NCBI RefSeq assembly: GCF_023525255.1
Contig: NZ_CP073355.1
Span: 1,922,001 to 1,986,000, forward strand
Direction of reading: 5' to 3'
DNA length: 64,000 nucleotides
From: Thermospira aquatica
Lineage (GTDB): Bacteria > Spirochaetota > Brevinematia > Brevinematales > Thermospiraceae
The notes under the pieces: generated by a model
What the model saw: only the letters and a program-made list of their open reading frames with translations
What the model was told of the DNA's origin: nothing
The model's database searches: none
Translations under genes and position numbers: made by a program
In this document: in pieces, positions 42,217-45,627 of the stretch
How the letters are laid out: the number at the start of each line of letters is the position of its first letter
Position numbering within the stretch: position 1 is the first letter of the stretch

Positions 42217-43848
42217 TTATTGAGCTAATCCCCATGTTGTGAGGTCTTCTTCAACAGTAGTAGGGGCTGTTATTCCGAAAGTTTCTACCAGCAATTCCAG
42301 GACAGCTGGAGAAAGGAAGGCAGGTAAAGTTGGCCCGAGGCGGATATTTTTTACACCAAGGGAGAGGAGGGCAAGGAGTACAATAACCGCCTTCTGTTCG
42401 TACCATGCGATATTATAAATGATAGGGAGATCGTTGATGTCTTTGAGCCCCAGGGTTTTCTGGAGGTGGAGAGCAGCGGCGACGAGCGAGTAGGAGTCAT
42501 TACATTGACCGGCATCGAGTACTCTCGGAATACCATGAATATCTCCCAGTCCGAGCTTATTGTAACGGTATTTGGCGCATCCTGCTGTGAGGATCACGGT
42601 ATCAGAGGGAAGTTCTTGAGCAAATTGGGTATAATAGTTGCGAGAGGGCATTCGACCGTCACATCCCGCCATCACTACAAAACGTTTGATAAGTCCTTTG
42701 TTAACAGCATCAAGGATAGTTTCTGTAAGAGAAGTAAGGGTAGCGTGGGCAAATCCTCCGATAATTTCTCCATGTTCTATGGGGAGAGGTGGGGGACATT
42801 TTTTGGCGTGTTCAATGATAGAAGAAAAGTCTTTTCTCCCATTTACATCAGCGGGTATATGACGGAGACCTGGATAACTGACAGGTCCTGTAGTATAGAC
42901 ACGGTCTTTGTAACTTTCTTTTGGGGGCACAAGACAGTTTGTGGTAAATAAGATTGGGCCACGGAAGCTTTCAAACTCCTCTGTTTGTTTCCACCAGGCA
43001 TTGCCGTAGTTACCGGCAAAGTTGGGGTATTTTTTAAACACGGGATAATAATGTGCTGGAAGCATTTCACTATGGGTGTACACATCTATGCCGGTGTCTT
43101 TTGTTTGTTCTAGAAGTTCCAGAAGATCTTTGAGATCATGGCCACTTATGAGTATGCCTGGATGGTTTCTCGTCGTGATAGAAACGTGGGTGGGTTCGGG
43201 GTTTCCAAAAGAGGAGGTGTTGGCCCTATCGAGGAGTTCCATAACCATAACGCCGTGTTTTCCGGTTTCAAGCGTCAATTCTACAAGTTTTTGCATATCT
43301 TGGAGTTGTACCGTAGCCACCAGAGCTTTTTCAACGAAATCGAGGATACGATCATCTTCAAATCCAAGATGACTTGCATGATAGGCATAAGCAGCTATGC
43401 CCTTGATTCCATATGTGATGAGTTCTTTGAGCGAGCGAAGGTTTTCATCCTTTTCATTTAAGATAGCACCAGTTTTCTTGAGAGAATCGATATCCTCTTC
43501 GTTTTTTATGGATATTCGTGCAAATTCAGGAACGGGAAGTGCATGTTCTTTTTGCAGCTTTTCTCCATAAGAGACAGTTTGCATGATTCGGGAAATAAAA
43601 TCCTCAGGATCAAAATTTGCGTTTGTGATGGTAGTAAAAAGTCCCTCCCATATGAGTTTTCCTACGATGGAATCGGTTTTCCCTTGTTTACGAAGTGCTT
43701 GATGGGTTGCCGCAAGTCCCTTGATAGCGTAGACGAGAGCATCCTGAAGTTGTGCTGTTGTATCGTCTTTTCCACAAACGCCTTTTATAGTGCATCCGAG
43801 ACCACCTGCAGCTTCCTGACATTGGTAACAGAACATATTGTGATTCAT
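42217..43848 (-). CDS. hcp: Hydroxylamine reductase (hybrid cluster protein)
   Basis: The 543-residue product matches Hcp, which reduces hydroxylamine or NO and protects against nitrosative stress. The N-terminal iron-sulfur Cys are 7, 10, 19 and 25 ([21 protein letters not shown]). Later hallmarks are [38 protein letters not shown] and [11 protein letters not shown]. It is the third gene of an operon with two ferredoxin-type genes and is followed by a terminator. Confidence 0.97.
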
Positions 43849-43868: not shown

Positions 43869-44648
43869 TTAGATCTCTGTTTGACCCAGGATATTTCCTT
43901 CAATACCCACGGTGATTACCTTGATTGGAAGGGAAGAACCACTTGTGTCTCGGGCTTTTTTTGCCAGAAAAGCAAGCCCGCGACAACAGGGGACCTCCAT
44001 GACCATAGTGGTGAAGGATTTTGGTTCTTTCTTTTCAAAAATAGTCACAAGTTTTTCGAGATATATTTCCTGATGCGTGTCGAGTTTTGGACAGGCAATC
44101 AAAAGTTTTGTTTCCTTCAAATGGGTATGGAAGCCTGGAAGGCTAAAGGCAGTACAGTCGGCGGCGAGAAGGATATTGGCGTCTTCCCATGCCTCATCCT
44201 CTCCATGAACAAGATGAAGTTGAATAGGCCAGTGTGTGAGGGTATATCCTGTTTGAAATACCTCCGGCGAAGGAAAATGCTGGTTTGGTTTTTCTCCTTC
44301 GGTAAAGGAGATACCCTTTTCGCGGAGGATGGAAACAGCTATTTCATAGTCTTTCCACTGGTTGTGACTGGCGAGGTGTTTAAGATGAGCATCGATAACG
44401 TTTCTTCCCTGACGGATAATGTTTTGAAGTACACGAGCCTCATCATAAGGTTCTGCTTCCCTTTCTTCTATGTGGAGAGCGTTTTGTGGACAGTATCCCA
44501 CGCAAGCTCCAAGTCCATCGCAGTAAAATTCTGAAACAAGTCTTGCCTTGTTGTCAATAATCTGAAGAGCTCCCTCGGGACAGTTGGGCACACAGAGTCC
44601 ACATCCATTGCATTTCTCTTCATCGATAACTATCATCTTTCTCTTCAT
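43869..44648 (-). CDS. Two-cluster ferredoxin-domain protein linked to hcp
   Basis: The 259-residue product has an N-terminal ferredoxin domain: [16 protein letters not shown] and [16 protein letters not shown] give two 4Fe-4S sites. The rest (about 95-259) is a domain seen in iron-sulfur proteins beside hcp, with conserved-looking Cys in [16 protein letters not shown] and EVPCCRGLA. It probably passes electrons to Hcp. Confidence 0.88.
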
Positions 44649-44683: not shown

Positions 44684-44872
44684 CTATTCTTTCTCTACCG
44701 AGATAGCACCGACAGGACACTGACGGGCGGCATCCTCAGCGAGGGACACATCATAGGCAACATTTTCTTTGACATGGGCTTTGCCATCAGCCCGCATCTC
44801 AAAGAGTTCTACGTAAATACTTTCACACACGCCACATCCAATACAGGTATTCTGGTCAATAGTAACAGCCAT
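44684..44872 (-). CDS. Single-cluster 4Fe-4S ferredoxin
   Basis: The 62-residue product has Cys10, Cys13 and Cys16 (TCIGCGVCESIYVELFEM) and a distal Cys53 in the CPVGAI motif, as in Thermotoga/Desulfovibrio-type monocluster ferredoxins. First gene of the hcp operon, behind AAGGAGG, and the likely electron donor. Confidence 0.92.
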   Translation of the reverse strand: MAVTIDQNTCIGCGVCESIYVELFEMRADGKAHVKENVAYDVSLAEDAARQCPVGAISVEKE

Positions 44873-44885
44873 ACGTTCCTCCTTT

Positions 44886-44914
44886 TTGCTTTTTTTCTGT
44901 GTTTATATTATACT
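44886..44914 (+). promoter_or_regulatory. Promoter of the Crp/Fnr regulator gene
   Basis: TTGCTT (44886-44891), 17-bp spacer, TATACT (44909-44914), predicted start near 44921. The palindrome at 44934-44949 lies just downstream, where bound protein would block transcription. Confidence 0.6.
44907..44912 (-). promoter_or_regulatory. -10 element of the hcp operon
   Basis: TATAAT on the minus strand, predicted start near 44900. No good -35 hexamer lies at 17 bp (CAGAAA). That fits a promoter needing an activator, and the palindrome at 44934-44949 is centred about 41.5 bp upstream of the predicted start. Confidence 0.6.
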
Positions 44915-44933
44915 ATTTTTGTAGGGATTTTTC

Positions 44934-44949
44934 TGTCACCTGGGTGACA
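44934..44949. promoter_or_regulatory. Palindromic operator for the Crp/Fnr regulator (HcpR-type)
   Basis: TGTCACC-TG-GGTGACA, perfect 7-bp arms with a 2-bp centre. It resembles the GTAAC-N3-GTTAC type boxes reported for HcpR in several phyla, with C for A. It lies between the divergent regulator gene and hcp operon. Confidence 0.78.
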
Positions 44950-44964
44950 AAAAAGGAGGAAAAT

Positions 44965-45627
44965 ATGTTTTTACCATGGCATCTTCCTCTTTTTCAGGGT
45001 ATTTCTCAGGAAGAGAGGGAGAGGATTCAAAAGCTTCCCTGGCACGAGTACACCTTTGAAAAAAAAGAGATCATCTTACGAAGTGGGAGTGAGTACAAAC
45101 ATCTCTGGATTATCATTTCGGGAGAATGTCAGGCTATCTTTCCTTCTCTTGTTGGAGAAGTGTTTGTGGTGGAGAAACTTCGAGCTCCGGTTGTTCTTGC
45201 CTCGGCGCTTCTTTTTGCAAGTTCGTCGTATCTTCCCGTGGATGTGGAGGCCATAACACCAGGCAAAGCTCTCTATGTAGAAAAATCGGTGTGGGAGAAT
45301 ATTTTGGGAGAGTGTGAAATATTGCGAAAAAATTTTCTTCGTGAGGTTTCGGATAAGCTTCTCCTTATTTCAAAACGGATGATGCTTTTTCAATTGCCAG
45401 TGGAGAAGCGGCTTTTGTTGTATCTGTCCCAGATGAAAAAAGACAGCATGGAGATCCATCTCCCTATGAGTATAGAAAATCTTGCAGCCTATCTTTTTGT
45501 TACAAGACAGGCTCTTTGTAGAGTTTTTCGTCGACTTGAGAAGGAGGGATATCTTCTTCAAGATCGTCGAACCATTCGTCTTCAGCCTCGTTTCTTGGAA
45601 GAGTTTGGGGTTAAAAACGGAGAGTAA
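44965..45627 (+). CDS. hcpR: Crp/Fnr-family regulator, probable HcpR
   Basis: About 220 residues from the ATG at 44965, which follows AAAGGAGG. The N-terminal cNMP-like barrel spans about 10-115 (YKHLWIIISGECQAIFP). The C-terminal winged helix has SIENLAAYLFVTRQALCRVFRRLEKEGYL. No N-terminal FNR-type cysteine cluster is seen. HcpR proteins activate hcp in response to nitrosative stress; the divergent position next to the hcp operon and the shared palindrome support that name. Its end overlaps the convergent gene by 17 bp. Confidence 0.82.
   Translation: MFLPWHLPLFQGISQEERERIQKLPWHEYTFEKKEIILRSGSEYKHLWIIISGECQAIFPSLVGEVFVVEKLRAPVVLASALLFASSSYLPVDVEAITPGKALYVEKSVWENILGECEILRKNFLREVSDKLLLISKRMMLFQLPVEKRLLLYLSQMKKDSMEIHLPMSIENLAAYLFVTRQALCRVFRRLEKEGYLLQDRRTIRLQPRFLEEFGVKNGE

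Follow-up and report, generated by a model that had tools for sequence, protein, structure and literature searches.

We propose that a single operator, lying between two divergent genes in a 64,000 nt window of the Thermospira aquatica genome (the whole stretch of DNA that we analysed), acts in two directions: a regulator of the HcpR family bound there would activate the operon of the hybrid cluster protein gene, hcp, and would limit the production of HcpR itself. We put the probability of this whole circuit at about 0.7. Among the known switches for the hybrid cluster protein in anaerobes, HcpR is the principal one, but its own restraint has been little studied; if our proposal is correct, a single operator makes the HcpR circuit self-limiting. 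The HcpR family is already known; the operator variant and the conserved two-way layout that we predict here appear to be without description in the open-access literature that we searched.

The leftward operon has the gene order ferredoxin-frdX-hcp and is divergent from hcpR. It begins with a gene for a 62 aa single-cluster ferredoxin (44684-44872, minus strand), followed by a gene for a 259 aa frdX-type 4Fe-4S protein (43869-44648, minus strand), which is also the gene divergent from hcpR in relatives, and by hcp, which encodes a hybrid cluster (prismane) protein of 543 aa (42217-43848, minus strand). This last protein matches Pfam PF03063, scores well over the cut-offs of NCBIfam TIGR01703 and NF003658, and is the sole copy in the genome (one PF03063 match). 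When the window genome is compared with its genus mates, the ferredoxin heads the hcp operon in the window genome only; a paralogue that is 80% identical is found elsewhere in the same genome, and the genus mates have a single copy away from hcp. These sequences suggest that a duplicate of the ferredoxin gene was inserted between the promoter and frdX. Four FlaA homologues encoded in the window genome point to a spirochaete.

On the other side of the intergenic region, hcpR (44965-45627, plus strand) encodes a 220 aa protein with CRP/FNR architecture (Pfam cNMP_binding and HTH_Crp_2, PF00027 and PF13545, both above cut-off). The first and second of its PDB sequence matches are 1o5l (6e-18), which we take to be the Crp-family protein TM1171, and 9day, the HcpR of Porphyromonas gingivalis (7e-12); an AlphaFold model built from 17 relatives (pLDDT 89.4) has 9day as its top PDB fold match. 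The gene adjoins hcp and frdX, a layout shared by relatives, and the palindrome upstream of hcp matches the specificity residues of the protein. Pairwise and profile sequence matches, together with the fold, place the regulator in the known HcpR family. Since it combines Gln181 with GTCACnnnnGTGAC, rather than Pro181 with GTAACnnnnGTTAC, it falls outside the HcpR2 subgroup that shares the common operator. Its cysteines are solely at positions 55, 117 and 185, and there is thus no FNR-type N-terminal cysteine cluster. The heme ligand of P. gingivalis HcpR is Met68 (PMC12750200); this residue aligns with Phe59 of the T. aquatica regulator and the position varies among related proteins, such that heme sensing cannot be assumed. 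In the same stretch (codons 55-62, 45127-45150), Cys55 is common to the genus and to some other related regulators, and could be an alternative heme ligand.

The putative operator, TGTCACCTGGGTGACA (44934-44949, no strand assigned), reads TGTCAC-n4-GTGACA and is centred at 44941.5. An earlier note on this DNA had described a perfect palindrome at this position. We recomputed the palindrome, both -10 hexamers, the -35 hexamer and the distances between them, and the observation as a whole was confirmed, including the position and centre of the palindrome; "perfect" is a slight overstatement because the central T-G pair is not self-complementary, leaving 7 bp arms and seven matching pairs of eight. 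Against dinucleotide shuffles of the 92 bp intergenic region, the palindrome taken alone is only modestly surprising: a 7 bp-arm inverted repeat with at least four G/C per arm arises in 0.4% of shuffles, and a 16-mer with 6 bp arms and a 4 nt centre in 3.3%. Its strength comes instead from its conservation in both genus mates and its uniqueness outside coding sequence. The two genus mates, with 58% and 57% identity between regulators, carry TGTCACTTTGGTGACA and TGTCACCTTGGTGACA at the operator position, with invariant TGTCAC-n4-GTGACA arms. In whole-genome searches for exact TGTCACn4GTGACA, the hcpR site is the sole match in both genus-mate genomes; the window genome has one further match, within a 500 aa glycerol-kinase-like ORF (L001). 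We also considered, and rejected, a wider HcpR regulon in the window genome, where sites with up to two mismatches number 62 on each strand as compared to 60 in the reversed control. Given these counts, and that the one-mismatch sites are in long ORFs except for one repeated sequence occurring twice, the palindrome looks like a single-target operator. The repeated sequence, TGTCACGCCAGTGGCA, is present with identical flanks at two places outside long ORFs (positions 1501-1516 of L004 and L006) and is probably a repeated element.

The strongest evidence that the neighbouring regulator binds the palindrome is covariation between operator and recognition helix, which ties one to the other. The helix TRQALCR (45502-45522, plus strand) has Arg, Gln and Arg at positions 180, 181 and 185, numbered as in Escherichia coli CRP. 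Among related loci, Arg180-Pro181 pairs with GTAAC (GTAACnnnnGTTAC), and does so again in Bacteroidales; Arg180-Gln181 pairs with GTCAC (GTCACnnnnGTGAC) in the window genus only, and with GTCGC in Porphyromonas loveana; and Arg180-Ser181 pairs with GTTGC in combination with Arg185, but with GTTGT where Asn, Ala or His takes that position. Base 7 of the operator is C in all 19 loci with Arg185 and in none of the 14 without (Fisher P ~1e-9, a value that ignores relatedness). There are exceptions to the rule for residue 181: the close relatives L051 and L053 have GTACC with Pro, and L102, L081 and L112 also deviate, and in these three the adjoining DNA examined contains no match to hcp or frdX. 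The pairings found in these sequences extend the correlation with residues 180 and 181 given in the sections consulted of an earlier study (PMC1274295). Arg-Ser regulators that lack Arg185 and have TGTTGTnnnnACAACA-type sites are found at L085, L086, L093, L098, L106, L111, L113, L115 and L120; the portions of the HcpR literature consulted contain no mention of this operator class. On the basis of these comparisons, we consider it very probable that the adjacent HcpR-family regulator uses the palindrome as its operator.

The position of the operator relative to the hcp promoter was as the earlier note had claimed. With starts placed 7 nt after each -10, the TATAAT at 44907-44912 (minus strand) predicts a start near 44900 and puts the centre of the palindrome at -41.5; the promoter has no good -35, the best in-register hexamer being CAGAAA (-0.2 bits). 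Both genus mates have TATACT in place of TATAAT at the same position. The set of related loci consisted of those with a palindrome between a related regulator gene and a divergent hcp or frdX gene. The mean hcp-side -10 score of these loci is highest at 29 nt from the centre of the palindrome, equivalent to the -41.5 geometry, and this maximum is reached by 0 of 5000 dinucleotide shuffles for eight lineages (likewise for seven without the window) and by 0 of 3000 for 18 loci (z = 8.4), although the loci share descent, such that these shuffles, like the Fisher test, overstate independence. The spacing is kept across the 18 loci; examples of the -10 range from TATATT, which is AT-rich, to TAGACT in a GC-rich genome. 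The class II position proposed in the earlier note is therefore strongly supported, and class II activation best explains the hcp side: the predicted promoter fits the CRP/FNR-activated type, with a site near -41.5 and a weak -35, and hcp is very likely activated from the palindrome in this way.

The divergent hcpR promoter was likewise recovered as described, with TTGCTT (44886-44891, plus strand) and TATACT (44909-44914, plus strand) separated by 17 bp, a predicted start near 44921, and the palindrome at +14 to +29. In the genus mates the -35 is TTGCTT and TTGATT and the -10 is identical. A Shine-Dalgarno sequence, GGAGG (44955-44959, plus strand), begins 5 nt past the palindrome and is kept in the genus mates; in the predicted hcpR leader RNA (44950-44995, plus strand), the Shine-Dalgarno region pairs with coding sequence at 44983-44995. 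The earlier note, which proposed that a single site acts in both directions and that the bound dimer should repress hcpR owing to its place just downstream of the regulator start, had the position right; it missed the HcpR family name and a further feature of the locus, which is that the hcp and hcpR -10 hexamers overlap by 4 bp. This overlap is present in all three genus members. In the genus mates, both -10s are within AGTATACT, which is itself palindromic and serves both directions, and both -10s, the -35 and the spacing are kept alongside the operator arms. The promoter pair thus has the overlapping divergent -10s of bidirectional promoters, with a predicted start-to-start distance of 21 bp. 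Since the hexamers share 4 bp, polymerase cannot occupy both, and activation of hcp and transcription of hcpR should exclude each other.

We scored the 18 loci for a regulator-strand promoter of at least 9.5 bits with its -10 beginning 35 to 25 nt before the palindrome centre. Such a promoter is present at eight loci, as compared to 0.86 expected (0 of 1500 shuffles reach eight), and these loci carry at least four family labels (f1, f22, f23 and f42), f22 supplying most of them, such that they are not fully independent. Where this promoter is present, a distance of 21-28 bp is predicted between the two starts, and the palindrome falls within +6 to +29 relative to the regulator start. By contrast, the regulator promoter is absent from L044, L047 and L051 among the loci scored, suggesting that autolimitation is common but not universal. 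The claim that the site limits its own activator is thus upheld by the geometry both in the window genus and across several further families, and fails to extend to those three loci. At the window locus, we consider it probable that hcpR is lowered by the same binding event, and this autolimitation may come from competition between RNA polymerases as much as from a block by the bound protein.

Reading the binding, the direction of regulation, the start sites and the route by which hcpR is lowered from the sequence, we envisage the following circuit. HcpR would be activated, presumably, as its family membership suggests, by a reactive nitrogen species such as NO, and its dimer would bind the palindrome. 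Bound at about -41.5, the dimer would recruit RNA polymerase to the strong hcp -10, which lacks a -35. Polymerase held in the hcp direction would exclude polymerase in the hcpR direction, owing to the overlapping -10s, and the dimer, occupying about +14 to +29 relative to the hcpR start, would also lie within the part of the polymerase footprint that extends downstream. The result would be an inducible activator with negative feedback.

An alternative possibility, which we regard as unlikely, is that hcp is activated via the palindrome while hcpR is constitutive and little affected, basal competition between polymerases being weak. Basal activity was indeed too low for competition in all five E. 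coli bidirectional promoters tested (PMC12825309), and several relatives lack an overlapping regulator promoter. Nonetheless, overlapping regulator promoters with the palindrome downstream of their start are enriched in several families, and strong activation in the E. coli system reduced the divergent transcript (PMC12825309). It is considerably less likely that HcpR is a repressor here, with an arm of the palindrome serving as the -35 of a sigma-70 promoter (GTGACA-16-AATAGT or GTGACA-18-TAGTAT) and hcp blocked until NO releases the protein. A consensus scan does find GTGACA-based promoters overlapping the palindrome, TAGTAT is kept in both genus mates, and a published model of Desulfovibrio desulfuricans HcpR2 has this protein repressing hcp (PMC5701242), which counts against our activation reading. 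However, the two promoter hits compare with 1.3 expected in shuffles, the alternative -10 position (24-26 nt) is not conserved beyond the genus, and with the conserved -10 at 29 nt the arm would be 21 bp away, which is too far for it to act as a -35; we rejected a GTGACA-based hcp promoter on this cross-lineage spacing. Moreover, induction of hcp in Clostridioides difficile is abolished without HcpR.

The palindrome might instead act in RNA, as a hairpin in the hcpR leader that tunes translation from the adjacent ribosome-binding site. A 6 bp RNA hairpin can form just before the Shine-Dalgarno sequence, but the leader fold is not unusual (z = -1.37) and the arms show no compensatory changes within the genus, and on these grounds we rejected a hairpin role for the leader. 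In other lineages, 80-100 nt separate the palindrome from the regulator gene while the distance from the palindrome to the hcp -10 is constant, and the palindrome covaries with a DNA-recognition helix; we consider the hairpin very improbable. Lastly, although 6 bp-arm 16-mers do arise in shuffles of this region at the rate given above, the idea of a chance palindrome in AT-rich intergenic DNA is refuted by the conservation in genus mates, the uniqueness outside coding sequence, the conserved spacing and the helix covariation, leaving it a negligible probability. If the operator does activate hcp and restrain hcpR, this layout has been kept over several bacterial families while the operator shifts with two recognition-helix residues plus residue 185. 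Natural variants could then separate polymerase competition from a roadblock, and a simple rule based on the helix residues would allow HcpR sites to be predicted from the sequence of the protein.

The HcpR system was described by comparative genomics (Rodionov et al., 2004, 2005; PMC545781, PMC1274295). In the sections consulted, the regulon of the HcpR2 branch resembles the window locus in having a CRP/FNR gene by hcp and frdX, a palindrome upstream of hcp, and an operator that correlates with the residues at 180 and 181; Treponema denticola is among the species listed, and positive control of hcp-frdX is predicted from sites near -35 in Desulfovibrio. The common HcpR2 operator there is GTAACnnnnGTTAC, whereas that of the window is GTCACnnnnGTGAC with Gln181, and those sections do not describe one site common to two overlapping promoters. 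Activation of hcp under NO is known for P. gingivalis HcpR (PMC12750200), and in C. difficile hcp and frdX rise ~200-fold on NO in the wild type but not in an hcpR mutant (PMC12915319). P. gingivalis HcpR (PG1053, PDB 9day) is the best fold match and shares Arg-Gln at 180-181; it differs in its operator, GTCGC as compared to GTCAC, and in having Met68 as heme ligand where the window regulator has Phe59. A profile from a two-protein regulator alignment, scanned against genome contigs, found P. loveana only. P. loveana has TGTCGCCTATGCGACA upstream of hcp, with TACCTTTG beginning about 30 nt from its centre (by inspection), which we take to be a Bacteroidetes -7 element. Its hcpR and hcp genes are convergent and thus, unlike those of the window, share no promoter.

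HcpR also controls hcp in Bacteroides thetaiotaomicron, where a transcript, SnoA, opposes the hcp -7 element (PMC13370916). A SnoA-like mechanism, in which the leader RNA of hcpR, made from the shared promoter and containing the operator in hairpin form, works with HcpR at the hcp promoter, would mean that the divergent transcript itself regulates hcp; SnoA is a separate RNA whereas the divergent transcript of the window is the hcpR mRNA, and we judge such a mechanism to be highly unlikely. The predicted circuit also resembles the bidirectional promoters of E. coli, which have overlapping -10s and in which an activator near -40.5 lowers the divergent transcript: when one direction is activated, transcription in the other falls, for the most part through competition between polymerases (Warman et al., PMC12825309). 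When a CRP site was engineered at -40.5 of acrA, CRP activated that direction and blocked transcription of acrR; for this variant the study could not tell competition from binding, since the site overlaps the -35 (PMC12825309). The window locus shares this ambiguity. The predicted distance of about 21 bp between the window starts, which comes from sequence, differs from the distances most often seen in E. coli (10, 18 and 23 bp; PMC12825309), and the window locus differs further in that the activator is encoded by the divergent transcript itself.
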